Below, piece by piece: positions 1 through 22,485 of a stretch of 28,378 nt of DNA. The DNA comes from a virus. Position 1 is the stretch's first letter, and the number at the start of each line of letters is the position of its first letter. The stretch is taken from IMG/VR virus record IMGVR_UViG_3300030329_002890, positions 1 to 28,378 of that record; one strand, given 5' to 3'. The notes beneath the pieces were generated by a model that had not been told where the DNA came from, searched no databases, and saw nothing but the letters and a program-made list of their open reading frames with translations. The position numbers were made by a program, and so were the translations under genes.

Positions 1-213
1 GCGCACCAAATGTCTTACTACATAGGAGGGTCTCATGCTGAAACGAAAGAAGAAGTAGATCAAGTTGAAAAACAAGAACGTCAATGGTGTTCTTGGATGG
101 CAGAGTTGAGTGAAAAAGATGCAGAGTTTTGGTATGATAAAACCTACAAGAAAAACTTTTACTTGACTCCAGACGAATGTTTAGACTATGGAGTTATAGA
201 TGAAATCTTTTAA
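1..213 (+). CDS. ClpP-fold serine protease, C-terminal part (5' end outside the window)
   Basis: The reading frame is open from base 1, so the gene begins upstream. An ATG at position 10 lies inside the conserved core and is not a credible start. The first residues read A-H-Q-M, matching the ClpP block around the catalytic His (I-H-Q-P), so the His at bases 4-6 is probably the active-site residue. A charged helical stretch follows, then the typical ClpP ending: Y-L-T-P-D-E-C-L-D-Y-G-V-I-D-E-I-F, equivalent to the F-L-S-A-E-E-A-L-x-x-G-L-V-D-E-I of ClpP. The nucleophile Ser lies off the window. ClpP-fold enzymes in phages act as head maturation proteases or as free peptidases. With a second ClpP-like gene 264 bases on, this may be one half of a hetero-oligomeric pair. 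The family is fairly sure; the role is not. Confidence 0.75.
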   Translation, partial: AHQMSYYIGGSHAETKEEVDQVEKQERQWCSWMAELSEKDAEFWYDKTYKKNFYLTPDECLDYGVIDEIF

Positions 214-481
214 AAACCGCAGTCACGAAGTAGCTTATAATATGATGGAAATAAGTGTAGAGTTAATAGATGAAGTATTTAAAAAGGTAGACAAACTTGC
301 TGATGCTAACTCTCACAGAGAACGTAATGGTTTAAAACTTATTGACTCTGGACACTTTAGATGGGATATCAGGCAGCTCAAGATTAACACAAAAAACAAG
401 CTTGAGAAAATTATGAACTTACTAGAAGAGTATGGGGATGACGCAAAACTAGTCACTCACGAACCGGAGGAAAAAGAATGA
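200..481 (+). CDS. small helical protein between two ClpP-like genes, function unknown
   Basis: I do not recognise this 93-residue protein. The ATG overlaps the end of the preceding protease gene by 14 bases and has a GGAG ribosome site (190-193) six bases upstream. The last codons overlap the next protease start as ATGA, so the three genes look translationally coupled. The sequence is hydrophilic and probably all-helical: residues 10-35 and 55-78 look amphipathic, with alternating hydrophobic and Lys/Glu positions. The C-terminus is acidic (E-P-E-E-K-E). There is no membrane segment and no Cys. Its place between two proteases suggests a partner or adaptor, but that is only an inference from position. 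A small terminase subunit is another option for a small helical protein upstream of the large terminase, although no DNA-binding motif is evident. Confidence 0.7.
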   Translation: MKSFKNRSHEVAYNMMEISVELIDEVFKKVDKLADANSHRERNGLKLIDSGHFRWDIRQLKINTKNKLEKIMNLLEEYGDDAKLVTHEPEEKE

Positions 482-1125
482 AGAAACTATTGACCTTAGC
501 TATTTTGGGGGGTCTATTTTTAGGCACCTTTTTGTCAATTGAAAAAGAAGAAGTATTAGAGAACAAGTATGATGTTTCTATTGGAGCTATCGATGGCTAC
601 AGCATAGGACCTACACTAAAAGACTTTAAGAACGCAGCAAGAGCAAACGGAAAAGATAAAGTAATTGACATGGTTATAAACTCCGGTGGTGGGTCAGTTC
701 ATGTTGGGCTAGAGTTTATTGAAGAAATGAAATACTTTAAAAGCTTAGGTTACAAGTTCAACTGCTACGTTCGTAATGCATACTCTATGGGATTTATAAT
801 CTTACAATATTGTGACCATAGGATAGGGAGTTCTAATTCTACTTACATGCACCACCTAGTGCAGGTAGGATACGGCAGACCTGAAAGAACTGAAAATAAT
901 AAAAAGTTGTTTAAAGCACTTGACTTTTTCGATAATCTAGTGTTAGATGAAATCTCAAAAAGAATGGGCGTAAACCCTAAAGAGTTCTTTGAGATTTATA
1001 AAGATGACAAATGGTGGGATGCTAAAGAAGCTCTTAAGTCTAACATCATAGATGAGATAAAGCCATTTAGTTTAGTTGTAAAAAAAGTAAAATATAAATT
1101 CGTACCATTTTGGAGGAGATTTTAA
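478..1125 (+). CDS. ClpP/SppA-like serine protease with N-terminal membrane anchor
   Basis: This 215-residue protein has a ClpP/crotonase-type fold. Residues 66-77 (V-I-N-S-G-G-G-S-V-H-V-G) match the ClpP glycine-rich strand and loop that form the oxyanion hole. Ser103 in N-A-Y-S-M-G-F sits where ClpP has its nucleophile (A-S-M-A/G), and His125 in Y-M-H-H matches the M-I-H-Q catalytic His. The end (W-W-D-A-K-E-A-L, then I-I-D-E-I) matches the C-terminal ClpP block. The third catalytic residue is probably one of the two Asp in Y-K-D-D-K. Unlike cytosolic ClpP, the protein begins with two Lys and about 16 hydrophobic residues (4-19) with no clear A-x-A cleavage site, so it looks anchored, as in SppA-type peptidases. 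The start has a GGAGG site and overlaps the upstream stop as ATGA. Proteolysis is likely; the substrate (prohead, envelope or host protein) is unknown. Confidence 0.78.
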   Translation: MKKLLTLAILGGLFLGTFLSIEKEEVLENKYDVSIGAIDGYSIGPTLKDFKNAARANGKDKVIDMVINSGGGSVHVGLEFIEEMKYFKSLGYKFNCYVRNAYSMGFIILQYCDHRIGSSNSTYMHHLVQVGYGRPERTENNKKLFKALDFFDNLVLDEISKRMGVNPKEFFEIYKDDKWWDAKEALKSNIIDEIKPFSLVVKKVKYKFVPFWRRF

Positions 1126-1443: not shown

Positions 1444-2322
1444 ATGAGTGGTAAGAACGCAAAAAAAGCAAGAAAAGAAGCAAAAGAAAATGAGTCCGAA
1501 CAAGATAAACTAAAACGATTAGCTGAAGCTACAGACTTTAAATTAATGAAACCTTTTGGTCCATCGTTTGGTATGTTTGTTATGCCAGATGAAATGACGA
1601 AAGCTTTGCTAAAAAAGTCTGATGAAATACTAGAGGATAGAAACAGAGTAGACTGGGGTAAAAACCTTGTAGGTCAAATTGCAGAGGAGCCTTGGATTTC
1701 TAATGAAGACTTAGATGAGATTGGAGCACTAAAGTATTTAGAAGGTATGCTGTATAACTACGTATGGAATGCTCTAGCTTCCGATGGTCATCAAGTAGAA
1801 CTTTTAGAAGTTAGTCTAGATCATGCATGGATTGTCAGTCAGTATGAAGGAGAATACAACCCTGTTCACTTTCATACCTACTGTGATCTTTCTTCTGTAT
1901 TATACTTAAAAGTACCACCACTTGACGAAAGATCCAAGAACAAAGAGTTACCAGATTATAAATTTTCTAGAGATGGGATGATTGAGTTTATCTACAAAAC
2001 AGCTTGCCCTGGAGGTTTAGAGAAAGGTTCACTGTCTTTTACCCCTGAGCCAGGAAAATTAGTTATCTTTCCATCTAACCTTTTGCATACAGTTTATCCA
2101 TTTAAAGGAGAAGGTGAACGTAGGTCTATAGCTTTTAACTCTCATTGGAACGCAAGACTTAAAGGTGGAAAAGTATTTGACAAATCATTTAGAATGAAGT
2201 CAGATCAAAAAAACGAAGAGTATCAAAAGACATTAAAATCAAAAAACGAGGAATCTGGATTTGCAAAACGTAAACAGGGAAGCCCTGATAGCGGAGCTTC
2301 AGAAAAGGAAGACAAAGTCTGA
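1444..2322 (+). CDS. 2-oxoglutarate/Fe(II)-dependent oxygenase (2OG-FeII_Oxy_5-like)
   Basis: This 292-residue protein has the core of the 2OG-FeII_Oxy_5 type common in cyanophages and other marine phages. The iron-binding segment is P-V-H142-F-H144, followed by the strand L-S-S-V-L-Y-L-K-V-P, typically L-S-G-V-Y-Y-L-K-V-P in the family. The distal His is H215 in P-S-N-L-L-H-T-V-Y-P-F. The 2OG-binding Arg is R226 or R227 in G-E-R-R-S-I-A-F-N. All needed residues are present, so the enzyme should be active, using oxygen and 2-oxoglutarate to hydroxylate an unknown substrate. The core is flanked by a Lys/Glu-rich N-terminal tail (residues 1-30) and a charged C-terminal extension (about 240-292), unusual for the family. 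The start has an AGGAG site. The last 62 bases overlap the terminase gene in another frame, which may couple their translation. Confidence 0.85.
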   Translation: MSGKNAKKARKEAKENESEQDKLKRLAEATDFKLMKPFGPSFGMFVMPDEMTKALLKKSDEILEDRNRVDWGKNLVGQIAEEPWISNEDLDEIGALKYLEGMLYNYVWNALASDGHQVELLEVSLDHAWIVSQYEGEYNPVHFHTYCDLSSVLYLKVPPLDERSKNKELPDYKFSRDGMIEFIYKTACPGGLEKGSLSFTPEPGKLVIFPSNLLHTVYPFKGEGERRSIAFNSHWNARLKGGKVFDKSFRMKSDQKNEEYQKTLKSKNEESGFAKRKQGSPDSGASEKEDKV

Positions 2323-3989: not shown

Positions 3990-5897
3990 ATGGGTATTTA
4001 TTCAGAAATTAACGGAAGTAAATGGTGGTTAGCCAGTAATAATGACTTATATCAAGAACTATTCTCTTACGTTAATAATCTAGATAGTAAACAACAGTAT
4101 AGATCAGCTGATAATCTAAGGTATGCTAGGTTATACGGAAACTTTGATTACTTTGGTCTAAATGCTTTAAATTATTACAGAGTTGAAGCCTCCTACAATG
4201 TAACCAATCGGGTTACTCTTAACGTAGTGCAGTCTATGGTAGATACTGTAGTCTCAAAGATAACTAAAAATAAACCAAAAGCTACATTCCTCACCTCTGG
4301 TGGGGATTTTAGTTTACAGACTAAAGCTAAAAAACTTACAAAATTTGTAGAAGGTATTTACGCTCACACTGATTTTTATGAAAAAGCTACTATGGCATTT
4401 CAAGATGCTTGTATTTTTGGCACAGGCTGTCTTAAAATTTTTATAGAAGACGGTCAAATAAAAACAGAAAGAGTAATGATTGAAGAGATAAAGATAGATG
4501 ATGTAGAATCTTTTTATGCTAAACCAAGACAAATCCATCAAGTTAAGTATGTTCAAAAATCTGTTTTAAAAGAAACTTTTCCAGGTTTTGAAATAGAAAT
4601 AGATCAAGCCATGAACACAGACGATAACAGTTTTCAAGACTATCAATCGTCTACATATAAAGACATGGTAAAAGTTGTAGAGTCTTGGCACCTAAAGTCT
4701 GGACCAAAAGCAAAAGACGGTAAGCATACTATTTGTATCTCTAGTGCTACTCTCTTTGAAGAAGAGTATGATAAAGATTACTTCCCCTTTGTATTCTTTA
4801 GATGGGGTGACAGACCTGTTGGTTTCTTTGGTCAAGGTTTAGCTGAACAGCTACAAGGTATTCAACTAGAGATTAATAAAATACTAAGAACAATACAAGT
4901 ATCAATGCACCTTGTCAGTGTTCCTAAGTTACTAGTAGAAGCTAGTTCTAAAATCGTATCATCTCACCTTAACAACCGCATAGGTGGGATTATTAAGTAT
5001 GCAGGAACTCCTCCAGCTTATGCTCCTCTTGGTGGTATCCCAGGTGAACTATTCTCTCACCTAGATCGTCTATATCAAAGAGCTTATGAAATATCCGGTA
5101 TCTCTCAACTAGCAGCTCAATCCTTAAAACCTGCTGGTCTAGACTCAGGTAAAGCTCTAAGAGAGTTCAATGATCTAGAGACTGAAAGATTTATGTCAGT
5201 AGCTAAACGATATGAAAAAACTTTTATGGATGCTGCTGAGATTATGATAGACATGGCTAGAGATTTATACCTTGCAGAAGGTGAGTTTAAAGTAAAAGCT
5301 AAAGATGGTAAGTTTGTAGAAAGTATTAGTTGGAAAGATGTAGACATGGATAAAGATAAGTACATGATGCAAGTATTTCCTACCTCTGCCTTATCTAACA
5401 CTCCTGCTGCCAGACTAGCAGACGTTCAAGACCTATTGGCTGCTGGTTTCATAGATAAAGAAGATGCCTTAAGTTTACTAGACTTCCCAGACTTAGAATC
5501 TACAATGAACTTACTAAATGCTGATTCTAAAAACTTAGAAAGAATCATAGAAAAAATGATGGATGAAGGAGAATACTTTCCACCTGAACCATATCAGAAT
5601 CTTGAAAACTGCCTAAGAAAAACACAACAAGCTTATTTATTATACAAAGTCCAAGGTGCTCCAGACGATAGACTAGAGCTTCTAAGACAGTTTATGGAAG
5701 ACTGTCAGAATCTTTTAGAAAGGGCTAGAGCAGAGGTACCAGGACCACAAGAACTTACACAAGAATTAGCAGCACAAGGAGCAGCTACAGCAGCAGCAGA
5801 AGTAGCTGAAAATATTCCACAAGAGCAAGGTCTATTAGAATCTGGAGCCATAGACCTAAGTGAACAAGCAGTAGATGACCAGCAGGTTATAGAATAA
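3990..5897 (+). CDS. portal (head-tail connector) protein
   Basis: Twelve copies of the portal form the ring at the special vertex through which DNA enters and leaves. The 635-residue length lies between the T7 (about 535) and P22 (about 725) portals. Residues 50-110 hold the tyrosine-rich start and a N-V-V-Q-S-M-V-D-T helix with K-N-K-P-K, typical of the portal N-terminal region. The block A-C-I-F-G-T-G-C-L-K-I-F around residues 141-152 matches the portal wing motif G-T-G-x-x-K. The region about residues 270-400 (W-G-D-R-P-V-G-F-F-G-Q-G, then G-K-A-L-R-E-F-N-D) contains the long helix of the clip and stem. The C-terminus is acidic, Ala/Glu/Gln-rich and probably helical, as in portal barrels. 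It follows the terminase block and precedes scaffold and capsid, the canonical order. A weak GGAT site precedes the ATG. Confidence 0.93.
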   Translation: MGIYSEINGSKWWLASNNDLYQELFSYVNNLDSKQQYRSADNLRYARLYGNFDYFGLNALNYYRVEASYNVTNRVTLNVVQSMVDTVVSKITKNKPKATFLTSGGDFSLQTKAKKLTKFVEGIYAHTDFYEKATMAFQDACIFGTGCLKIFIEDGQIKTERVMIEEIKIDDVESFYAKPRQIHQVKYVQKSVLKETFPGFEIEIDQAMNTDDNSFQDYQSSTYKDMVKVVESWHLKSGPKAKDGKHTICISSATLFEEEYDKDYFPFVFFRWGDRPVGFFGQGLAEQLQGIQLEINKILRTIQVSMHLVSVPKLLVEASSKIVSSHLNNRIGGIIKYAGTPPAYAPLGGIPGELFSHLDRLYQRAYEISGISQLAAQSLKPAGLDSGKALREFNDLETERFMSVAKRYEKTFMDAAEIMIDMARDLYLAEGEFKVKAKDGKFVESISWKDVDMDKDKYMMQVFPTSALSNTPAARLADVQDLLAAGFIDKEDALSLLDFPDLESTMNLLNADSKNLERIIEKMMDEGEYFPPEPYQNLENCLRKTQQAYLLYKVQGAPDDRLELLRQFMEDCQNLLERARAEVPGPQELTQELAAQGAATAAAEVAENIPQEQGLLESGAIDLSEQAVDDQQVIE

Positions 5898-10677: not shown

Positions 10678-13600
10678 ATGGCTCTTAATAAACAAGGATT
10701 ACATCTACAATTAGACCAAGGCATCAATACAAAGTTTGATGATAAAGACCTACCTCTTGGAGACTTTGATTTAGTTGAAAATGTTTCATTTGAAAAAAAT
10801 GGAGAGTTCAATAAAAGATACGGATATGATGAAATAAAAGGAGAACAGATAGGAGGAACTCAAGCTCAGTCTCCTATTGGTGTTACAAAGTATAAAGATC
10901 AGTTATTATGGGTATCTAGAGATCAAGTTTATAGCTACAGTGAAGGAGCTACTGTATTTCAAAATGAGGGTAGTTTTGATGCTATAGTTCCTAAGTCTAG
11001 CATAGTGGTTCAAAATGGAAAAGAACAATCTGAGCTTCAATGTGCCTATTTGCAAGGCTACAAAGTTTTTGTTTACATGGAAGGCTCAGTTCATAAAATA
11101 TCAGTAGTTGATGATGAGTCGGGTTCATATGTTCTTTATAATCAAACAGTACCAGGCTCTACTAGAACAGGCGGTCTTAGAATAGTTGTTAAAGATAATA
11201 AGATAATTTTATTTGGCACAGACGGTTCTAATGTTCTAAAGATTCAAAGATTTGATTTACTAGGTTATCTAAAAGATGGATTAGCTTTTGAGTCTTCAGC
11301 AGTAGGAGCCCTAGGTGCAGAAAATACTGTAGCCACTTTACACTCATCTAAGAAGTATGATGTAGCTGTAAGTGCCATATCAATGATAATTGCATACTAT
11401 GACAATAGTGCAAGTGAATTAAAGTTTGCAAGAGAACTTTCTAATAGTGAATCTTTTACGACTGATATAGACCCTTTTACTGTTGCAATAGCTCCTGCAA
11501 ACGCCATAGACTTAAGTGTTGATCTTTTTGGAAAATTTATATTAGTAACAGCAAACGGAAGTGGTGTAGTAAAATTAGCCATACTTGGAGCCGATGTTAC
11601 ACAAGTTAAAGCTCCTACTACAATAGAAGATGTAACTTCTGCTAACTTTGATTCTGCTGTAAACGTAACCGCACAGACTATAGATGGTTTTACTTACGAT
11701 GTTTTTTATCAAGTCTATGAGTCTTCTCCTTCTGTTTTTACTATAAGCACAGGAACTACAGCAGCTTCTACTACAGCAGCTTTAGACTACACATGGTCAA
11801 ATCATCATGTAAGAAAAAATACTTTTAGTTATAGTACTAGTACAGCAGGTACAGCCTCTACTATTATGAGAGGAGTTGGTCTAGCGACAAAAGCTTTTGT
11901 ACAAGATCAGAATGTTTATATAAATACAATACGAGAAGCAGAATTATATGCTACTTATTATGTAGCAAAATCAGACGGTTCTATACAATCAAAGATTAGT
12001 CAAAATACAGGAGGCAGTCTACTTAACTCTATAAGAAAAAGAAATGGAGTATCTACAGTTTTTTCTAATCACAGTGGTACAAACACTGATGCAGTTTACA
12101 CTGTACCAAGCCTTAGTAACGTCCCAACCATCAGTTCAGAAAAGTTTTTAGTAGTAACTAAAATACAAGGTGTTATAGAAAGTGGAACTGAGGGAACTAC
12201 AAACTATTATAGTTTATATGGAGTAAACAGTACAATACTAGATTTTAGTAATGAGATTGTAAACCAAACTGAAGAACTTGCAGAAAACTTACATTTCTCT
12301 GGAGGTCAGCTAAAAGCATATGATGGTAATGTTTTAGTAGAACAAAATTTTAACTACCCCCCTGCTAGGATGGACATAGCAAAAGGAACAGCAGGTGGTG
12401 ATAATACTTTTGCAAGACCTTCAACGGTTGATGATGTTTATCAGTACAGAGCAATATTCACTTTTACAGATGCTCAAGGCAATATTCATAGGTCAGGTCT
12501 TTCAAACTTAGAAACTTTTACATATGAAACTACTGCTACTGACTCTACCTTAGATAATATTTTAGTTCACGTACCCTCTCTACCTCTTACTCAGAAAGAA
12601 GATGTTTACATAGAACTATATAGAACTACGGCAAATGGGACAGTTTTTCATAAATTAAATGCTGATAGTAGTAACTCAACTTCTCAAACATTTACTCCAA
12701 TAAATAATCAACCTACTGCTGACTGGATACTATACAAAGATAAAACAAAAGATACTAGTCTAGTAAACAATGAAACTCTTTATACTACAGGTGGTATTTT
12801 AGAAAACACAAGTCCACCATCTTGTTCTATAGTTTCTAGTTTTAAAAACAGATTATTTGTGGCAGGGCTAGAAAACAAACTAGAGTTACGGTTTTCAAAA
12901 CTACTATCGTCAAAGGTAGGAGTTGAAATGAATGATACTCTTAGTATTCTAGTATCACAGGTTGGTGGAGACATTACAGCTTTGAAATCTATGGATGATA
13001 AGCTTATAATTTTTAAGAAAAATGCAATATTCTATCTAGCAGGTGATGGTCCTAATAATCTTGGAGAACAAGATACGTTTATTGAACCACAACTTATATC
13101 CTCTGATGTAGGGTGTGCTGTAAAAAATAGTGTAGTTCTAACACCGTTTGGCATTTTTTTTAAGACAGGAAAAGGTATTTACCTACTGACTAGAGCCTTA
13201 GAGCTAGAATATGTAGGAGCAGACGTAGAGGATTATTATAATCTAACAATAACAAAGGGTGACATTTACCCTAAAGACAATGAAGTTAGGTTTTTAACCT
13301 CTGAAGGACAAGCTTTAGTTTACAACTATTATAGAAAGTTTTGGGGACTATATGGGAACCACCGAGGAGATAGTTCAGTAGTTATAGGACAAGATTACTA
13401 CTATGTTCACAAAGATGGTAATGGTAGCAGGGTATTTAAACAAAATAGAGAGAAGTATGATGATGCAGGAGATCCAGTAGAGTTAGTATTAGAAACTGGT
13501 TGGATAAACCCTTTTATGAAACAGGGCGCAATGAGAGTCTATAGGATGTTAATATTAGGCGACTATTACTCACCACATAAACTTAAGGTTAGTATTTGTT

Positions 13601-13971
13601 ATGACTACAAAGACTACTACTCTCAGTCAAAGGTTATAGATGTTAATGATTATACTGAAGTCTATACTTATGGAGACCCTGATCAAGAGATAAAATCAAC
13701 TGGGGTATCAAAAGGTTTCTATGGTGACCCAGGTGGTACCACTGGTACCCATACTACAGCTATAGCATATGGTGGAAAAAATGTTATGCAGTATCAAGTA
13801 AGAGTTGACTTTGATCAGCAAAAATGCGAAGCTTTCAAGATAAAGATAGAATCAGAGCAGCAAGCAGGTGAGTTAGGCAGAGCCCTAGGTCTTAGTGATC
13901 TTACGTTTATAGTTGGTACAAAAGGAACAGAATATAAAATTAAACAAAGTAGAATCTTTGGAACAAGCTAG
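10678..13971 (+). CDS. tail nozzle protein (T7 gp12-like position)
   Basis: This 1097-residue, beta-rich protein lies between the adaptor region and the ejection proteins, the T7 gp12 position. Its N-terminus (Q-G-I-N-T-K-F-D-D-K-D-L-P-L-G, then V-E-N-V-S-F and K-R-Y-G-Y-D) matches the opening of podovirus nozzle proteins, where a short N-T-K stretch, a P-x-G turn and a K-R-x-G-x motif begin a beta-propeller. Repeated strands of the form L-L-W-V-S-R-D-Q-V-Y-S-Y and F-G-I-F-F-K-T-G-K-G-I-Y-L-L (about residues 824-836) fit propeller blades. It is longer than T7 gp12 (about 794), and the extra length seems to lie in the Ser/Thr-rich middle (about residues 330-500). It probably forms a hexameric tube through which DNA leaves and carries fibre contacts. 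A TAGGAG site precedes the ATG. Confidence 0.82.
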   Translation: MALNKQGLHLQLDQGINTKFDDKDLPLGDFDLVENVSFEKNGEFNKRYGYDEIKGEQIGGTQAQSPIGVTKYKDQLLWVSRDQVYSYSEGATVFQNEGSFDAIVPKSSIVVQNGKEQSELQCAYLQGYKVFVYMEGSVHKISVVDDESGSYVLYNQTVPGSTRTGGLRIVVKDNKIILFGTDGSNVLKIQRFDLLGYLKDGLAFESSAVGALGAENTVATLHSSKKYDVAVSAISMIIAYYDNSASELKFARELSNSESFTTDIDPFTVAIAPANAIDLSVDLFGKFILVTANGSGVVKLAILGADVTQVKAPTTIEDVTSANFDSAVNVTAQTIDGFTYDVFYQVYESSPSVFTISTGTTAASTTAALDYTWSNHHVRKNTFSYSTSTAGTASTIMRGVGLATKAFVQDQNVYINTIREAELYATYYVAKSDGSIQSKISQNTGGSLLNSIRKRNGVSTVFSNHSGTNTDAVYTVPSLSNVPTISSEKFLVVTKIQGVIESGTEGTTNYYSLYGVNSTILDFSNEIVNQTEELAENLHFSGGQLKAYDGNVLVEQNFNYPPARMDIAKGTAGGDNTFARPSTVDDVYQYRAIFTFTDAQGNIHRSGLSNLETFTYETTATDSTLDNILVHVPSLPLTQKEDVYIELYRTTANGTVFHKLNADSSNSTSQTFTPINNQPTADWILYKDKTKDTSLVNNETLYTTGGILENTSPPSCSIVSSFKNRLFVAGLENKLELRFSKLLSSKVGVEMNDTLSILVSQVGGDITALKSMDDKLIIFKKNAIFYLAGDGPNNLGEQDTFIEPQLISSDVGCAVKNSVVLTPFGIFFKTGKGIYLLTRALELEYVGADVEDYYNLTITKGDIYPKDNEVRFLTSEGQALVYNYYRKFWGLYGNHRGDSSVVIGQDYYYVHKDGNGSRVFKQNREKYDDAGDPVELVLETGWINPFMKQGAMRVYRMLILGDYYSPHKLKVSICYDYKDYYSQSKVIDVNDYTEVYTYGDPDQEIKSTGVSKGFYGDPGGTTGTHTTAIAYGGKNVMQYQVRVDFDQQKCEAFKIKIESEQQAGELGRALGLSDLTFIVGTKGTEYKIKQSRIFGTS

Positions 13972-13978
13972 AGGATTT

Positions 13979-14314
13979 ATGAGTAATTATGCAGACTACA
14001 GACTAGAGTGTTATGACATTCATAGTTTTGAAGACGAACATGGATTTTTTGCAGTAAAGAGCCATGATAATGATAAAAGATTACATATAGAAGACATGTG
14101 GGTAAAACCAGAATTTAGAGATAAAAAAATAGGACAACAATATCAGGATAAGATATTTACATACGCAAAAGATAAAAAATATGAAAAAGTTACATGTTCC
14201 GTTTATGTTTATAATAAACATGCAAACGAAACTCTAGCTAAATTTTTACACAACAAATGGAAACTAGCTTGGAACAATGGTGATTATATTGTGCTCAGTA
14301 AGGATGTAATATGA
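13979..14314 (+). CDS. GNAT acetyltransferase-like protein in the T7 gp13 position
   Basis: The ATG at 13979 is preceded by AGAGG just after the nozzle stop. An in-frame TTG at 13913 would overlap the nozzle gene and has no good ribosome site, so I prefer 111 residues. The core resembles a GNAT fold: L-H-I-E-D-M-W-V-K-P-E-F-R-D-K-K-I-G-Q-Q-Y matches GNAT motif A (V-x-P-x-x-R-x-x-G-I-G), which binds acetyl-CoA. A strand V-T-C-S-V-Y-V and a helix with N-K-H-A-N-E follow, as in GNAT motif B. One usual Gly of the R-x-x-G-x-G loop is Lys here, so activity is uncertain. In T7 the gene at this place encodes gp13, a small virion-assembly protein. The stop overlaps the next ATG as ATGA. A true enzyme or a structural relic are both possible. 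Confidence 0.7.
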   Translation: MSNYADYRLECYDIHSFEDEHGFFAVKSHDNDKRLHIEDMWVKPEFRDKKIGQQYQDKIFTYAKDKKYEKVTCSVYVYNKHANETLAKFLHNKWKLAWNNGDYIVLSKDVI

Positions 14315-17157
14315 AAATTATTAAACCTGTATTATTAGGACCAAAACTCATAGCAGTAGGACCTCTGAAATGCTTCAAAGGTGGAGACGGTGGCTCTGGT
14401 GGCGGAGGCGGCGGCGGTGGCGGCGGTGGCGGCAAAGGTGGCGGAGGCTCTAGTGGAACTCAAGGTGCTCAAGCTAGAGAATCAAGAGAACTAGCCAAAC
14501 AAATGAAGAAAGAGGAAGAAGACAGAGTTAAGAAAGAAACCAGCATGGGTGGTCAACTAGCAGGAATGGACTTTAGTGACATTAAGCGTGATCCTGTAAC
14601 TGGAAAACAAACAGGTCAAGTTAAGAAAAAAGACGATAGAACTGGTTTACAAAAAGTTGGAGGTTTTCTTAAAGGTTTAGCAGGTGGGACTTTTTCAACT
14701 GATAAAGACGAACAGGATGCGGCATTTAATAAAGCTGAAGCCGCAAATTTAAGTAAACGTGCAGGGCGAACTGTTTCTGTAGAAGAAATGAAAGAGTTTG
14801 AAGAACAAGGTGGTGGTACTTTTGGTGGACCTAGTGCAAAAGAATTTTTTGGACAAAAAGATAGAGCCGCAGCAGAAGGAGTTAAAGACTTTATATTTAC
14901 TGATCAAGCTGAAGTAGCTAGGTTAGAGGCAGAAGAAAAAGCTGCTGCTGACTTTCAAAAAGCTAGAGAGTTAGAAGCAGAGCAAAGTTCTTTTGGTAGA
15001 CAACTAAGGGACGAAGGTTTTGACTTTCAAAAAGCTATAGCAGATAGAGCAGAAGGCGAAAGACTTAGAACAGAAACTAGTGGCGCTCAACTAACAGATT
15101 TAGGTAGACAGGGAGCTTTACAAAAGGCAATTGAAGACCGACAAGACATGAGAGAAATGGGTTTTGATGAGAATATAATAGACTCAAGACTGTCATTTGA
15201 AGAAAAACTGGCTCGGCAATCGGATATAGATGATAAGAGAGAGGATGAAAAAACTTTACAAAGAGAACTTACTAGGAGAGCGTCTGATAGACGTTTAGAT
15301 GCGGAAGCTGATAGAGAGCTTGCAATACAAGATAGGAGAGCAAGAGCTATAGGTGAGGATTTAACACAAGCTAGACAGGCAGAGCAAGACTTTTTTGATA
15401 AAGAAAGAGACCAAAGAACTCTATCTAGAGAGCTTGCTAGGAGAAGGTCAGACAGAGCTTTAGCCAAAGAAGCTGATAGAGAGGCTTTAGAAAGAGAACA
15501 AAGTTCTTTTGGTAGACAATTAAGAGAAGAAGGCTTTGACTTTCAAAAAGCTATAGAAGATAGAGAGTTATCTGAAGATTTAAGAAGAGAAGACTTAAGA
15601 CGTAGAAAAAGAGCAGAAACAGAAAGACTAATAGAAGCTGATGCTCCAGACCAAGTTGGAATAAGAGAAGCTTTAGCTGATAGAGAGCTTCAAGAACAAA
15701 TAGCAGCAGACCCTAGATTTGGAAGTGAAGAAGAGTTTGAAGCTTTTAAAGATGCACAAGAAGAAAAAACGCCTGAAGAAATAGCAGAGGACCAACGAAG
15801 GGTTGAAGAATTATATGTTGCATCTCAAAATCGTAAAAGAGATAGAATGGCTTTGATGGATTATGAAAAGGGCTTAATAACTGCTCAAGAGTATGGAGCA
15901 TTAACAGGAAATGAAAAAATACCTAGAAAGTCTTTATTAACTAGAAGAAATTTTATAGAAGCCTTAGGTCTATACCCAAAGGGAGGCGCTGCTGTAAAAA
16001 ATATAGCAAAGTTTTTAAATAAAAAACTAGCTAAGCCTACCACAATGGAAGAAGCTGAAGAGGATATAGCTTCTGAGGCAGAAAAAAAAGAGGCTAAAAA
16101 AGAAACAGGTAAGAAAACAGATTCTAAGAAACCACTAAATGTTACCACAAGAAGTGGAGGTGACCGTTCTGAGCAAAAGCCTGCAACCCCTGTAGCTCCG
16201 GCTCCACCTGTTGCTGCTCCTGCTCCTGCTCCAACTCCAAAACCTGTTGAACAATTGACCGCAGATGAAGTTGGAGATTCTATAGTTAAAAAAGAAGCTC
16301 AATTGATTAGAGAACGAACCCTAGCTCAACAACTAGCTTCAATAAGAGGATTAAGAGGTGCAACTGCTGGTCAAAAAGCTAGATTATTACGAAGGTCACA
16401 AGAAAGATTTGATAGAGAATTTGCCCCACAAGTTCAACTAGCTGTATTAAAAGAACGTGAGACTAGAAGAAAAGAACAGCAAGGTCTTAGTGAAGCTGAA
16501 AAAGATAGACAAAATGCACTTGAAAGACAAAAGTTAGCATCTGGAAAACTAGTAAGTCTTCCTGGTTCTAGCAAACCATCTTGGCTTCAAGGTTTAGAAG
16601 CAGTATCCGATGCCCTTCCTGTAATAGAGGATGTTGCTACAGGACTTGGAGATTTTCTTACAGCATCAGAAGGTGGGTTTGTATCAGGTAAGGGGACAGA
16701 AACCTCAGACTCTATACCTGCTAGACTATCTGATGGAGAGTTTGTAATAAAAGCCTCTGCCGTACGTGGTATTGGTAAATCCATGGGTGCAAAAGGCAAA
16801 AAACAAGAAAGAAAAAAAGGTGTAGATTTTTTATATAAATTACAAGATAGAATGGGTAAAGTTGAGAAATTTTCTGAGGGTGGAGAAGCTTACTCAAGAC
16901 CAAAAAAAGCGTTTAGAGAAGCCATAGGCTATAAACCAGAGTCCAGATTTCACGACAAAGCCTTCAAAGATACAAAACATGGTGGAGCTAGACGTAAATT
17001 CAGACACTTCCAAATGGGTGGTGCTGTTGACATGAAGGGTCCAGGTATGGTAAAAGACCAATTTAAGGCACCTACTTCTGGCTATGGAGCAGTGGTCTCG
17101 GCTCAGGGTGACCTCATGAGACGGATTGAAGAACTAGAAAGAAAGGTAGGTAAGTAA
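14311..17157 (+). CDS. large internal virion (ejection) protein, coiled-coil
   Basis: This 948-residue protein lies first among three giant genes between nozzle and fibres, where T7 keeps its ejection proteins. It starts with a hydrophobic segment (residues 3-19) and an almost pure Gly run (24-49). Residues about 50-560 are highly charged, helical and coiled-coil, with internal repeats. A Pro/Ala linker follows (about 630-650), then another helical stretch. The C-terminal region from residue 787 carries G-F-V-S-G-K-G-T, S-D-S-I-P-A-R-L-S-D-G-E-F and I-K-A-S-A-V. Phage tape-measure and virion proteins often end with this motif. The very end is a coiled coil (R-R-I-E-E-L-E-R-K-V). A role in the internal core or in a trans-envelope channel is likely. 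No enzyme domain is visible. The start overlaps the upstream stop as ATGA. Confidence 0.75.
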   Translation: MKIIKPVLLGPKLIAVGPLKCFKGGDGGSGGGGGGGGGGGGKGGGGSSGTQGAQARESRELAKQMKKEEEDRVKKETSMGGQLAGMDFSDIKRDPVTGKQTGQVKKKDDRTGLQKVGGFLKGLAGGTFSTDKDEQDAAFNKAEAANLSKRAGRTVSVEEMKEFEEQGGGTFGGPSAKEFFGQKDRAAAEGVKDFIFTDQAEVARLEAEEKAAADFQKARELEAEQSSFGRQLRDEGFDFQKAIADRAEGERLRTETSGAQLTDLGRQGALQKAIEDRQDMREMGFDENIIDSRLSFEEKLARQSDIDDKREDEKTLQRELTRRASDRRLDAEADRELAIQDRRARAIGEDLTQARQAEQDFFDKERDQRTLSRELARRRSDRALAKEADREALEREQSSFGRQLREEGFDFQKAIEDRELSEDLRREDLRRRKRAETERLIEADAPDQVGIREALADRELQEQIAADPRFGSEEEFEAFKDAQEEKTPEEIAEDQRRVEELYVASQNRKRDRMALMDYEKGLITAQEYGALTGNEKIPRKSLLTRRNFIEALGLYPKGGAAVKNIAKFLNKKLAKPTTMEEAEEDIASEAEKKEAKKETGKKTDSKKPLNVTTRSGGDRSEQKPATPVAPAPPVAAPAPAPTPKPVEQLTADEVGDSIVKKEAQLIRERTLAQQLASIRGLRGATAGQKARLLRRSQERFDREFAPQVQLAVLKERETRRKEQQGLSEAEKDRQNALERQKLASGKLVSLPGSSKPSWLQGLEAVSDALPVIEDVATGLGDFLTASEGGFVSGKGTETSDSIPARLSDGEFVIKASAVRGIGKSMGAKGKKQERKKGVDFLYKLQDRMGKVEKFSEGGEAYSRPKKAFREAIGYKPESRFHDKAFKDTKHGGARRKFRHFQMGGAVDMKGPGMVKDQFKAPTSGYGAVVSAQGDLMRRIEELERKVGK
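14380..14457 (+). repeat. polyglycine tract coded by GGN triplets
   Basis: Residues 24-49 of the 948-residue ejection protein are almost only Gly, including an unbroken run of twelve (30-41). The DNA is a run of GGC, GGT and GGA codons and forms a sharp GC island in AT-rich surroundings. Such triplet runs can change length by slippage. It probably acts as a flexible tether between the hydrophobic N-terminus and the coiled coil. Confidence 0.9.
14980..15048 (+). repeat. internal repeat in ejection protein, copy 1
   Basis: This copy codes for residues 224-246, starting E-Q-S-S-F-G-R-Q-L-R and ending D-F-Q-K-A-I-A-D-R. It matches copy 2 at 15496-15564 in 63 of 69 bases and 21 of 23 residues. 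The two are 516 bases (172 codons) apart in frame. Confidence 0.9.
15496..15564 (+). repeat. internal repeat in ejection protein, copy 2
   Basis: This copy codes for residues 396-418 and is the partner of copy 1 at 14980-15048. A second pair of related heptad-like units, L-Q-R-E-L-T-R-R-A-S-D-R and L-S-R-E-L-A-R-R-R-S-D-R, lies between them near residues 311 and 367. The coiled coil therefore seems to have grown by duplication. Confidence 0.85.
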
Positions 17158-17163
17158 CATGAA

Positions 17164-17225
17164 CAGGAGAGTAATTAGTGTTAAGAGCGATTTTAATTTT
17201 TGTACTATTAGGGAGTACAGCAATG
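17164..17225 (+). promoter_or_regulatory. two ribosome sites and two starts that differ by a signal peptide
   Basis: AGGAG at 17164-17168 stands nine bases before GTG 17178, which gives a protein beginning with a signal-peptide-like segment. GGGAG at 17211-17215 stands seven bases before ATG 17223, which gives the same protein without that segment. Both sites are well placed, so either or both starts may be used. Confidence 0.5.
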
Positions 17226-20120
17226 GCTAAAGTTAATTTAGAACGGATGAAGAAACTTTCTAAACTTAGTAAAGTTCCTTTAGAAAGAATATTAAAGTTC
17301 CAACTTCAAGAATCTAAAGGAGGAACAATACTTACAGGTGATAGTGGTAAATCAGGTGGAGACTTACATCTACTAAAAAGTTCAGCTTTATTACTAACTA
17401 ACCCTAAAATACCTATAATTAAAAATAGAAAATTTACAGGAAGGTATAGAAAAGGTATTTTAGCTGATCAAAAACTTTATAATCTTATAAAAAAGTTAGA
17501 CACTAAACTAGAAAATGGTAGTTCAGAGTACAGTAGATGGTTAGTAGCTAACGAAGATTTACAAGATAAATTAGTAGTAGGTTTATTGAAAGATACCCAG
17601 TCAGGGGTAGAGAGATATGTAAAACAGACATTTAATAGAAAACCTACAGAAGAAGAGTATTATGCTTATTGGAATGCTTCTCCTAAAGCTGCTAGGGCAG
17701 CCATAAAAGATGGATTTAAATCAAAAGCTCCAGAAGCTCAAAGAGTACAAAGAAACATAAACATTTATAGAACAAATGTATTAAAAAAGAAATCAGAAGT
17801 TCCTGAAGCTCCTAAAGTACCAAAACTCCCTAAAGTATCAAAACCTCCTCAAGTCTCAAAACCTTCTAAAGACTCTAAACCATTTGCACAAGCTTTTAAA
17901 GAAGCTAGAGCAGAAGGTAAAAGAGAATTTACTTGGAGAGGTAAAAGGTATCTCACTTTAGAAAAAGGTGAGTCTATGGATGAGTTTGAAGAAAAATTTA
18001 AGTTTGTAGATGATCAGAAGTTTGACAACGTAGAAGAGTTTGAACGATCTAAAGATGAAGACATGGCTAAAGCACAACAAGAAATTATAGAAGAGGCAAA
18101 ACAGCCTAAACAAGAAATGAAACCAGAAGACATAAAATTAGAACAAACAATACCAATGGATCAATCAGTTCCATTTGGTGTTTTTGCTGAAGGACAACCA
18201 GAATTTGACAGGGCAGAAGAACAAGAAAAAGATAAACTAATGATGGCAGCTGAGGGTGGAGAAGTTAATCCACGTATTCCAAGAAAAAAAGGACAACCAG
18301 CTAAGTCTAAAAAACACTCTGATCTTTATACTGATGAAGACCCTGTAGGAACTATTCAAGGACTTGGTTTTAAAGATGTTGCTACCGCTAAGGCTTCTGT
18401 ATCAAAAATTCGTAAGTCTTCAAGGTCTCATGCTCACAAAGTTCAAGCAGCAGTAGCTATGGAACAAAGAGCAAGAGAAATGGGTAAAACTTCTGAGGCA
18501 GCAGTTTATAGAAAATTTATAGATCAAATGAAAGAGAAAACTAAAAAAATGGCAAAAGCTGAAGGTGGAGAGATTGGTTATCAAAATGGAGGAGAAGTTT
18601 TTGATGTTCCAGAATATCTTCGTAGACCAGAAGAAAATATTGAAGAAGAAGATTTTAGAATAGAAGACGTAACACAGATGGAGTTAGAAGATCCAGAAGT
18701 ACAAGATTTAGAAACAAGACCAGATCCTTTTCCAAAAAGAGAAAGGTCTCCAGATTTTCAAGGTGTTAGAGAGTTTCAACTATCTCAAATGGACACAGGA
18801 GAACTACTCGATAAGAAAGTTGCTGGACAACCAAGAGAACCTGCTGTTACCAGAGAATTATCTAGAAGAAAAAAAGAATTTGGTATTTCTCTAAAAGAAT
18901 TAGCTGGGTTAGAAGAAGAAAAAAAACAAAGAGAAGAAGATAAAAGAAAAAAAGACGAAGCTGAAAGACAAAGAAAAAAGTTTGAACAACTTAATAAAGT
19001 AAAAATACAAGATAGGACCCAAAAAGAATTAGATGAAGCTGAACTTAGGAAAGCACTAGATGAATCTATAGTTCAAGCTGAAAAAGCAGCACAAGGTGTA
19101 GACCCAAAAAGGTTCTTTAAAAATATGAGCACTTTTAATAAGATAGTAAGTCTTGTTGGTTTAGCAGCAGGTGCTTATGGTTCTTACAAGTATGGCACTC
19201 CAAACACTTTTGTACAAAGACTAGATAGAGAAGTAGAAAAAGATATAAAAGCTCAACAACTAGGACTAGAAAACGAAGGTAGAAAGCTTGCTGCTGCTAA
19301 ATTTAAGGTTGGTCAAATAGCTAAAAAACTAGCTATGTCTACTAAGAATGAAGAACAAAAAATTAGACTTTTACAAATTTTTCAAAGACAAAGAACAGCA
19401 GGAGTTAAAGAACTTAAAAAACTACAAGATGAGCAACAGTTAGTAAATGTTAATAAAATTGTAAACACTAGAGGAATAACAGACGACGAGTTGTCTAAGT
19501 TTGACTCTAAATACAGAAAATTAAAACTAAGAGATTCTATGATTAAAGGTAGGGATGGTCTAAACTACTTCGTAAGAGGCGGTCCTTCTAATATAAATAA
19601 AGTTAAGGCATACTTAGCAGACGCTCAAGACTCTATAGACGGTCTTACTGATTTATATAGTTATTTTGATAAAATTAGTATAATAGATCAAGCAGCTCCT
19701 ATTTTTTCTATTGATGCTGCTGCTGCTCAATCTCTTAGAGATAGACTAGTAGGTAAACTAAGAATTGAGTTTTTTGGTCCAGGTGTTATGACCGATCAAG
19801 AAAGAGCACAAGCTAAAAAGATTCTTGGAGACCCTAATGCTCTTTTAACAACAGATGCTAGAGAAAAGCCTAAAATTCTTAAACTTATCATGAAACTTAA
19901 TTATGGAGTTAGAGATAAACTGAGAAGAGACGGTGTAGCTATACAAAAAACTCCAAATGATCTAAGAATAGAACAAATGTTAAGTAGAAGAAACTTAGAA
20001 AACAATGCTAAAAACAGAAGATTTGTAATAGATGCCCTAATACAAGGAGAGATAGACGCTCAGAAAGCAGGAAAAGCTCCTGGTTCTTTATGGAATATGA
20101 ACGAGCCTCTACCAGTCTAG
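17178..20120 (+). CDS. large ejection protein with possible N-terminal transglycosylase domain
   Basis: This 980-residue protein is the second of three giant virion genes. From the GTG start it opens with a hydrophobic segment ending S-T-A-M-A (residues 3-17), like a cleavable signal peptide. From ATG 17223 it begins M-A-K-V-N-L. Residues 30-150 resemble a lysozyme-like transglycosylase: E45 in Q-L-Q-E-S-K-G-G, then G-D-S-G-K-S-G-G-D-L-H-L. T7 gp16 also carries such a domain, to breach the cell wall. This assignment is moderate, since the usual L-Q is L-H here. A Pro/Lys-rich linker follows (about 205-235), then a basic helical unit (386-460) with S-S-R-S-H-A-H-K-V-Q-A-A and A-M-E-Q-R-A that I cannot name, EGGE motifs at 359-362 and 462-465, and long charged helices to the end. 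It is probably released into the envelope with the DNA. Confidence 0.7.
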   Translation: MLRAILIFVLLGSTAMAKVNLERMKKLSKLSKVPLERILKFQLQESKGGTILTGDSGKSGGDLHLLKSSALLLTNPKIPIIKNRKFTGRYRKGILADQKLYNLIKKLDTKLENGSSEYSRWLVANEDLQDKLVVGLLKDTQSGVERYVKQTFNRKPTEEEYYAYWNASPKAARAAIKDGFKSKAPEAQRVQRNINIYRTNVLKKKSEVPEAPKVPKLPKVSKPPQVSKPSKDSKPFAQAFKEARAEGKREFTWRGKRYLTLEKGESMDEFEEKFKFVDDQKFDNVEEFERSKDEDMAKAQQEIIEEAKQPKQEMKPEDIKLEQTIPMDQSVPFGVFAEGQPEFDRAEEQEKDKLMMAAEGGEVNPRIPRKKGQPAKSKKHSDLYTDEDPVGTIQGLGFKDVATAKASVSKIRKSSRSHAHKVQAAVAMEQRAREMGKTSEAAVYRKFIDQMKEKTKKMAKAEGGEIGYQNGGEVFDVPEYLRRPEENIEEEDFRIEDVTQMELEDPEVQDLETRPDPFPKRERSPDFQGVREFQLSQMDTGELLDKKVAGQPREPAVTRELSRRKKEFGISLKELAGLEEEKKQREEDKRKKDEAERQRKKFEQLNKVKIQDRTQKELDEAELRKALDESIVQAEKAAQGVDPKRFFKNMSTFNKIVSLVGLAAGAYGSYKYGTPNTFVQRLDREVEKDIKAQQLGLENEGRKLAAAKFKVGQIAKKLAMSTKNEEQKIRLLQIFQRQRTAGVKELKKLQDEQQLVNVNKIVNTRGITDDELSKFDSKYRKLKLRDSMIKGRDGLNYFVRGGPSNINKVKAYLADAQDSIDGLTDLYSYFDKISIIDQAAPIFSIDAAAAQSLRDRLVGKLRIEFFGPGVMTDQERAQAKKILGDPNALLTTDAREKPKILKLIMKLNYGVRDKLRRDGVAIQKTPNDLRIEQMLSRRNLENNAKNRRFVIDALIQGEIDAQKAGKAPGSLWNMNEPLPV

Positions 20121-20127
20121 GTGACTT

Positions 20128-22485
20128 ATGATATCAGATAAAGAAAAAAAGTATCTAGAAAGTTTTAACAAAGTGAAAGGTCCTTTATCAGAAGGTGACA
20201 TGGATTTTGTTGAAGAAAACATAGAGATGCAAGAAAAATATGGAGATTCTAGTCTTAGAACATTCTTAGAATCTGCTGCCTCATCTGCTACTTTTGGACT
20301 TAGTGACCAAGCTTATGCTGCTCTAGGTGATGATTTCAAACAAGCGTTAAGAGAAAGACGTAAAAGAAATGAACTAGCTGCCTTTGGTGGAGAAGTGACA
20401 GGTATAGTAGGACCTGCTTTACTATCTGGAGGTAGTTCTTTAATAGCAAAAGGTGCAGGTGTAGCTGGAAAAGGTATGGCTACAGCAGCAAAAGCAGCTA
20501 AAACAGCAGAAAAACTAACTGCCTCTGGTATGAAAAGTCTTATAAAAGAAACCGGAAAGAAGAAGTTTGCTAGAGACGTTTTAAAGAAAAGTGTAGAAAA
20601 GGGTGCAGGTTCAGCAGTAGAAGGTACTTTTTATGGAGTTGGTGAACTAATAGAAGAAAACGCCTTAGGTAATGCAGAGTTTAATGCAGAAAACTTAGCA
20701 GCTTACGCAGGAAAAGGTGCCTTATTTGGTGGTCTTGTAGGTGGTGCTCTAGGAGGCATAGGACAGTCAGTTTCTATCGTTGTTCCTAAGATAAAAGGAA
20801 ACAAGATAGTAGGAATGGGTGTTGAAAAACTAGATAACTTCAAACAAAACATGACTAATCCTACATATAATGCTATGAAACTCGCAGGATTTGCAGACGA
20901 TAAAATAGAAAAATTAATATTAGAACAACCTGTCATGGCTAAAAATATGCCAGAAGTGATAGGTAAAGTCATGAGGTCTGAAGGTTTAGCTAAATCTCTA
21001 GCATCTAACACCTCTTTACTAGCAAACTCTAGAAAATACTTAGAAAAGATAGGAGATAAGATAGGAAAGACTGTTAAAGCAATGGATGATGACATAGCTG
21101 ATAAGTCAGTGTTTCCTACGTATTCCGGTATAGCTCAAAAACAAATAGACGGTCTTGAGGCTCTAAAGAAAAAATTTCAAAAACCAGATGGCTCTGCTTT
21201 GAATACAGAGGCAGCAGGTTACATACGTAAAGTAGATGATGAAATAAATTCTTTGTTTGAGACAAACTTACTAAACAAAAAACCTTACACTGCCTCTGAA
21301 CTACAGGATATGAAAATTAAGTTTCATAAACTAGGTAGATACGATAAAACTGGAATGCCTACAGTAAAAGATGATATAAATAGAGTCATGGGTAAGGCTG
21401 TAAGAGACGAGTTAGTAGATTTTGCTGGTAAGGTAAACTCTCCACTAGGTAAACAACTATCACAAGAGTTAACAGATTACAGTAGCTTAGTAACTTTTGT
21501 AAAAGAATTTAATAAAAAAATTGGTGGTCAAACTAACTTTCCTAGACTAAGAGACATATTCTTTGGTTTAGGTGCCTTTGGTGCTGGTATTGACCCTGTT
21601 AGTGCAGCAGGTGTAGGAGCCTTAACTTCTGCTTTTGCAAGGTCTGACTTAAAAAATAAACTTATGGTCTTAACTGATATTGAAAGAAGTAATATCAAAG
21701 TAGGACAAAAAATTAGTAGTTCTATAAACAAGTTTTTTAAAGGTAGAAAGTTTGACAAACTACCTGCTCTATCAGCTACCCTTTTGACTGGTAATCCACT
21801 AGCTAGAAAAACAGACGGTGATTTAGTTGTTGGTAGACCAAAAAATGAAAGAGAAGCCATAAAAAACATGGCAGACAATATAGATAGAATAAAAGACAAT
21901 CCACTTCTTATGAATAAATTATTAATGGATGCTAATTTACAGTCTAGTGCTCCTCAAACATATCAACAACTTAGACAGGTTGCTGGAAGGGCTTTTTTAT
22001 TTTTAGACTCTAAACTCCCTAGAAAAACACAAATGGTTAATCCTTTTATTAAAAAATCATATCCTACGTCTGATCAAGAGATTTATAAGTTTAAAAAATA
22101 CGTGCAAGCTGTACAAAACCCGATGTCTGTTTTAAAGGACTTAAATGGTGGAGTTTTAAGTAGAGAGGGTATTGAAGCTGTAAGGTATGTTTACCCAACC
22201 TTATATTCTGAAATGCAGTCTAAAGTCTATGAAGGTCTAGAAAAGGCTGGAGGTCAGACTACTTATAAACAAAGACTACAATTAGGCATACTTATGGATC
22301 TACCAACAGACTTATCATTAGAGCCACAGTCTATAGCAGGGCTACAATCATTCTATAGAGAGGCTCAAGTATCTCAAGGCGGAGGCACTATAACTGCTGC
22401 CGCAGCGAAGCAAATGGACCTAGCAGAATCCCAAGCTACTGAACTAGAAAAAGTGAGTAATCGTAAAGATTTAGGTAGATCATAA
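20128..22485 (+). CDS. large ejection protein with Gly/Ala-rich hydrophobic segments
   Basis: This 785-residue protein is the third giant gene, eight bases after the previous stop, with a weak GGTGA site. The first 80 residues are charged and helical. Residues about 84-125 (A-F-G-G-E-V-T-G-I-V-G-P-A-L, then A-K-G-A-G-V-A-G-K-G) and about 192-212 (A-L-F-G-G-L-V-G-G-A-L-G-G-I-G) are Gly/Ala-rich hydrophobic helices. Similar segments are common in large phage virion proteins thought to insert into the host membrane. Another such patch, G-L-G-A-F-G-A-G-I-D-P-V, lies near residue 480. The rest is mainly helical with no enzymatic motif. It fits the last T7-type ejection protein, which lines the channel across the inner membrane. 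The C-terminus is polar and Gln-rich. The fibre module begins after it with a probable promoter. Confidence 0.72.
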   Translation: MISDKEKKYLESFNKVKGPLSEGDMDFVEENIEMQEKYGDSSLRTFLESAASSATFGLSDQAYAALGDDFKQALRERRKRNELAAFGGEVTGIVGPALLSGGSSLIAKGAGVAGKGMATAAKAAKTAEKLTASGMKSLIKETGKKKFARDVLKKSVEKGAGSAVEGTFYGVGELIEENALGNAEFNAENLAAYAGKGALFGGLVGGALGGIGQSVSIVVPKIKGNKIVGMGVEKLDNFKQNMTNPTYNAMKLAGFADDKIEKLILEQPVMAKNMPEVIGKVMRSEGLAKSLASNTSLLANSRKYLEKIGDKIGKTVKAMDDDIADKSVFPTYSGIAQKQIDGLEALKKKFQKPDGSALNTEAAGYIRKVDDEINSLFETNLLNKKPYTASELQDMKIKFHKLGRYDKTGMPTVKDDINRVMGKAVRDELVDFAGKVNSPLGKQLSQELTDYSSLVTFVKEFNKKIGGQTNFPRLRDIFFGLGAFGAGIDPVSAAGVGALTSAFARSDLKNKLMVLTDIERSNIKVGQKISSSINKFFKGRKFDKLPALSATLLTGNPLARKTDGDLVVGRPKNEREAIKNMADNIDRIKDNPLLMNKLLMDANLQSSAPQTYQQLRQVAGRAFLFLDSKLPRKTQMVNPFIKKSYPTSDQEIYKFKKYVQAVQNPMSVLKDLNGGVLSREGIEAVRYVYPTLYSEMQSKVYEGLEKAGGQTTYKQRLQLGILMDLPTDLSLEPQSIAGLQSFYREAQVSQGGGTITAAAAKQMDLAESQATELEKVSNRKDLGRS

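Follow-up and report, generated by a model that had tools for sequence, protein, structure and literature searches.

The window, by which we mean the whole analysed stretch, is a linear virus record of 28,378 bases, and its 5′ end truncates the first of two tandem genes, here called ClpP1 and ClpP2 (genes 1 and 2), which are separated by a small gene, X. The features to which we refer are the following, with positions in the window.

1..213, + strand: C-terminal 70 residues of ClpP1 (A118-F187 of 187), assigned by PF00574, the full length from the relative L003 and AlphaFold/Foldseek
4..6, + strand: codon for the catalytic His119 of ClpP1, which lines up with His122 of E. coli ClpP and is invariant in the ClpP1 alignment
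154..156, + strand: codon (AAC) for Asn169 of ClpP1, where ClpP has its catalytic Asp, as seen in alignments with E. coli ClpP (Asp171) and 3q7h
200..481, + strand: X, a predicted helical protein of 93 aa, between ClpP1 and ClpP2, with no Pfam match
466..470, + strand: GGAGG, Shine-Dalgarno-like motif seen in the sequence 7 nt before the ClpP2 start
478..1125, + strand: ClpP2, ClpP-fold serine protease of 215 aa, putatively membrane-anchored or exported, assigned by PF00574, AlphaFold and Foldseek
481..534, + strand: hydrophobic helix at the start of ClpP2, residues 2-19, a predicted signal peptide or anchor, by hydropathy and the model
784..786, + strand: codon of Ser103, nucleophile of ClpP2, by alignments
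853..855, + strand: codon for the catalytic His126 of ClpP2, invariant in the ClpP2 alignment and matching the catalytic His of ClpP
1006..1008, + strand: codon for the catalytic Asp177 of ClpP2, replaced by Glu in the relative L108, by alignments
1075..1101, + strand: C-terminal strand of ClpP2, residues 200-208, past the ClpP core, by AlphaFold secondary structure

Related sequences were collected by querying IMG/VR with gene 2, which gave 30 relatives, and by a terminase-based scan, which gave 78 loci. The closest relative (L003) matches gene 2 at 100% identity, and its 39.4-kb contig contains the complete gene 1 (positions 5173-5736, 187 aa). Joined by their overlap, this contig and the window gave a map of about 48.5 kb that closes into a circle; precisely, when the 39.4-kb relative (G001) was compared with window positions 12350-21464, both of its ends fell within the map of the window, as for a circularly permuted sequence of this size. 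Against 50,697 phage records ClpP2 had one weak match only. The capsid protein had no match among cultured phages, the terminase had only distant ones there (pelagiphage and Pectobacterium phage), and the patterns used for GTDB genomes brought up no relative of either ClpP2 or the terminase.

The genes form a rightward late operon in the order 158 aa, 125 aa, 69 aa, GNAT-like, ClpP1, X, ClpP2, 107 aa, 2OG-Fe(II) oxygenase, terminase, portal, scaffold-like and capsid, so that the two proteases hold an early position in it, ahead of the terminase. The oxygenase gene (window 1444-2322; PF13759, E=2e-18; phrog_81) lies upstream of the terminase gene and overlaps it; it is present in most relatives and absent from L045, L107 and L108.

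An earlier note on this DNA had proposed, ahead of the terminase, two tandem genes of ClpP fold, both of which PF00574 and Foldseek confirmed. The 70-aa piece of ClpP1 in the window matched PF00574 with E=2e-4, and the full-length protein did so with E=1.8e-25 (90.3 bits against a cut-off of 20.2). Its AlphaFold model had a pLDDT of 70, that is a moderate confidence, and its top Foldseek matches were ClpP (E=9e-12). The note had read the ClpP fold from the truncated gene and would have given it up if the upstream part lacked the fold or the nucleophile; the full form from L003 has the fold, the nucleophile Ser96 (in GHVMSAA) and His119. The third position, to which the note did not refer, is Asn169, so that the active site is Ser96-His119-Asn169 rather than a Ser-His-Asp triad. 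We aligned the gene products with the ClpPs of E. coli and of several phages, the row of phage Vasanti being left out, and the equivalent of Asn169 was Asn in all the examined members of this phage group, including L108 (56% identical), whereas E. coli ClpP and the other aligned phage ClpPs had Asp or Glu; the single ClpP of L060, which is another kind of phage, had Asp there. Ser-His-Asn is a rare known variant of ClpP (PMC12900304).

ClpP2 matched PF00574 with E=4e-11 (43.5 bits against the cut-off of 20.2), and its AlphaFold model (pLDDT 87.8) had a Foldseek match to ClpP with E=2e-13 at about 20% identity. Its alignment gave a complete triad, Ser103-His126-Asp177. Of the two residues which had been named before for this protein, Ser103 held and His125 did not: it is His126 that is invariant in 17 sequences and aligned to the catalytic His of E. 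coli ClpP, and His125 is replaced by Ala in L108. The ATG at 478 is supported as the start by the GGAGG motif and by the 4-nt overlap with X. Considering only pairs with unsaturated dS, dN/dS was 0.03-0.04 for ClpP1 and 0.03-0.21 for ClpP2, and these low values show both proteins to be under strong purifying selection.

The second feature beyond the earlier note is the hydrophobic helix at the N-terminus of ClpP2 (residues 2-19), which in the AlphaFold model forms a separate helix ahead of the ClpP core. The mean Kyte-Doolittle hydropathy over 15 residues was 2.18, third among the 56 genes of the phage, and values of 2.07-2.62 were kept, in spite of changing letters, by 17/17 homologues whose identity to the protein of the window was 27-93%. 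In the homologues of ClpP1 no hydrophobic segment was present in 12/12, the best 15-residue hydropathy being ≤0.6. The start of ClpP2 is a clear TM-like anchor in L042-L045 (MKGKFKFLLNILIVCIMWYIPFKIVKS) and signal-peptide-like in L108 (MSKLLLGLLLAATAITAATSA). The net charge was +1 to +3 before the segment and mostly 0 to -3 after it (+2 in L042), a pattern that mostly favours an N-in/C-out orientation. The calls of export and orientation rest on this hydropathy and charge. In the clade of the window the c-region is a poor signal peptidase I site, hence cleavage of a signal peptide is doubtful; by the hydropathy in 17/17 homologues and by the model helix, ClpP2 has the predicted N-terminal membrane anchor of an SppA-type protein. 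In another region of the window, that of the virion genes, a 980-aa protein (17178-20120) with no match in the Pfam search also has a signal-peptide-like N-terminus (MLRAILIFVLLGSTAMAKV).

ClpP proper is a cytoplasmic protease fed by an unfoldase. In the alignment of ClpP1 with E. coli ClpP a hydrophobic cleft for the docking of ClpX/ClpA was not recognisable: Y62, I90, F112 and L114 of the E. coli protein correspond to Arg, Glu89, Arg109 and Ser111, and the cleft-equivalent positions are, all together, Ser, Glu, Thr, Arg, Ala, Glu, Tyr, Arg, Ser and Phe. This pattern of residues is largely conserved across the phage group. In ClpP2 parts of the cleft positions are gapped or charged. A search for AAA and AAA_2 domains that covered the window, the 39.4-kb relative, the 52.7-kb record of L108 and two further records gave no match, while its controls matched in 14/14 genomes. 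Judging from these sequences, the two proteases probably work without a Clp ATPase, one of the host being possible for ClpP1. The Ser-His-Asn site and the lack of a recognisable cleft together suggest that ClpP1 is probably independent of an unfoldase, with an activity that is low or regulated.

The three genes are joined by overlaps, as the earlier note had described for a small helical gene between the proteases: X overlaps ClpP1 by 14 nt and ClpP2 overlaps X by 4 nt. We counted the co-inheritance of the genes in 34 distinct haplotypes that reach from the GNAT gene as far as the gene following ClpP2. Both proteases were present in 33 haplotypes and neither in one (L107), and there was no haplotype with a single protease, the finding that would have spoken against the pair; ClpP1 and ClpP2 are retained or lost together. 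The order was ClpP1-X-ClpP2 in 28 haplotypes and ClpP1-FabF-ClpP2 in four (L042-L045), in which a FabF-like gene replaces X with both proteases retained; L108 has other small genes between the two, and L107 lacks both proteases. Hence the trio to be sought in relatives is kept as far as the proteases are concerned and is not kept as regards X, which is not needed to keep the pair since four haplotypes do so in its absence. A recent tandem duplication was considered as the origin of the pair and rejected, as ClpP1 and ClpP2 are 19% identical, a value no higher than that to E. coli ClpP.

The FabF-like gene encodes a beta-ketoacyl-ACP synthase (L042 1292-2542, L044 2544-3794; PF00109, E=1e-40), and upstream of the pair L044 also has a fatty acid desaturase (2-1018; PF00487, E=2e-22). 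In this divergent clade phage lipid-metabolism genes adjoin the putatively membrane-anchored protease.

The explanation towards which we lean, with a confidence only a little beyond even, is that ClpP1 and ClpP2 are serine proteases of ClpP fold which are inherited together and directed to different compartments, ClpP1 being cytoplasmic and ClpP2 tethered to the membrane on the periplasmic side. The altered active site of ClpP1 and the membrane-export signal of ClpP2 make it probable that the two lie on opposite sides of the host inner membrane. As to the actual export and orientation, the oligomeric state, the activity and the targets of the pair, we infer the following. ClpP1 would be a soluble, ClpP-shaped oligomer of the cytoplasm, with an attenuated Ser-His-Asn site, no unfoldase and a low or regulated activity. 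The N-terminal helix of ClpP2 would deliver the protein into or through the inner membrane, leaving the catalytic domain with its full triad on the periplasmic side, in an SppA-like layout in which a tethered oligomer would cut peptides or unfolded segments near the membrane with no need of ATP. The pair would most probably serve the takeover of the host late in infection, by clearing or remodelling cytoplasmic and envelope proteins, rather than the maturation of the capsid. The earlier note had suggested that the two enzymes split head maturation from host proteolysis; a division of labour does seem likely, by compartment, and its head-maturation half is weakened by L107.

Consistent with a role in the head, the best PHROG matches of both proteins are "head maturation protease" families (phrog_94 and phrog_2976), and the pair opens the late operon together with the packaging and head genes. 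One or both could hence be proteases of the scaffold or capsid that were displaced upstream of the terminase, which we consider unlikely. In the cultured phages sampled (HFM1 and Vasanti) the head-maturation proteases sit between portal and capsid, whereas the pair does not adjoin the portal, scaffold or capsid gene, and the predicted export signal of ClpP2 would be unexpected in an enzyme working on capsids. Moreover, L107 has no ClpP at the locus or elsewhere on its contig and yet retains homologues of TerL (69% identity), portal (61%), scaffold (38%) and capsid (71%); this weakens the head role and does no more, because L107 is a single case and a fragment of 11.8 kb, whose ClpPs could lie elsewhere. 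Our conclusion is that the automatic annotation of both genes as head maturation proteases is probably wrong here. In L107 the gap of the ClpP pair is occupied by an ORF of 139 aa (4137-4556) with a HELAH motif and no match in the Pfam search. It is perhaps a metallopeptidase, in which case a proteolytic function may be wanted at this locus in another form.

A second alternative, which we rate as improbable, is that ClpP1 enters a mixed ring with the ClpP of the host and so redirects the host ClpXP, with ClpP2 acting separately. Bacterial Ser-His-Asn subunits do act in hetero-complexes, and stand-alone phage ClpPs outside the head modules are known (Xanthomonas phage XaC1 and Bacillus phage vB_BcoS-136), but ClpP1 is without a recognisable docking cleft and is only about 25% identical to E. 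coli ClpP.

The mixed ring of ClpP1 and ClpP2 which the earlier note had put forward has its model in Listeria monocytogenes, whose ClpP1 carries the Asp-to-Asn change: its heptamers are inactive, and its activity requires ClpP2 (PMC5361862). In both organisms a Ser-His-Asn protein of ClpP fold occurs with a second, full-triad ClpP (PMC5361862), and a phage ClpP1 inactive alone would be activated by stacking on ClpP2. This shared substitution is the strongest point for the ring and deserves weight, and the genes are adjacent and strictly co-inherited. Nevertheless, we give the ring very little credence: in Listeria the two proteins form one complex, whereas in the phage a conserved signal or anchor is present in ClpP2 and absent from ClpP1, which predicts separate compartments; their mutual identity is as low as stated above; other genes lie between the proteases in four haplotypes and in L108, hence a tight coupling is not required; and the phage ClpP1 additionally has charged residues in the ClpX cleft. 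An obligatory complex of three proteins including the 93-aa product of X, also suggested in the note, is rejected, as X is replaced in L042-L045.

Returning to the two-compartment reading, its nearest counterpart in layout is SppA, a TM-anchored oligomeric protease of the ClpP class (PMC7568657). Like SppA of Bacillus subtilis (S49), ClpP2 has a ClpP-class domain and a predicted N-terminal TM anchor (PMC7568657), and both have a C-terminal extension past the core, which in SppA is self-cleaved (PMC7568657). ClpP2, however, aligns with S14 ClpP (Ser-His-Asp) and scored 12.6 bits against the S49 profile, below the cut-off of 24.9, so that it resembles SppA in layout and not in family. The nearest sequence families of both proteins are those of the S14 head-maturation proteases of phages (phrog_94 and phrog_2976), from the sampled members of which the pair differs by its position ahead of the terminase and by the predicted export signal of ClpP2.

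Phages with two ClpPs and anchored enzymes of the ClpP class are already known. In vB_BcoS-136 (clpP1 and clpP2) and in XaC1 there are likewise two ClpP-family genes per genome, but these lie about 9 kb and 255 kb apart, respectively, have canonical Ser-His-Asp sites and form no tandem pair. We found nothing relevant in the literature on an exported ClpP encoded by a phage, and neither there nor in the phage collection searched did we find a tandem pair in which one S14 member has a conserved export or anchor segment and the other a fixed Ser-His-Asn site. A bolder proposal, which we regard as possible but leave as tentative, is that a phage S14 ClpP has here become a membrane-tethered periplasmic ring for ATP-independent proteolysis of the envelope, with a cytoplasmic Ser-His-Asn ClpP as its obligatory partner. 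If true, the S14 fold would be active outside the cytoplasm with no ATPase, as the separate S49 family is, and the phages of this group would attack or remodel the host envelope by proteolysis ahead of lysis. Both the unbroken pairing and the invariant Ser-His-Asn site lend themselves to tests that are concrete and cheap.

We also observed that one of the genes between the two ClpPs in L108 (5441-5716) encodes a PQ-loop membrane protein, and that a PQ-loop gene lies directly before clpP1 in Bacillus phage vB_BcoS-136 too (L126 2638-2922), an odd recurrence.
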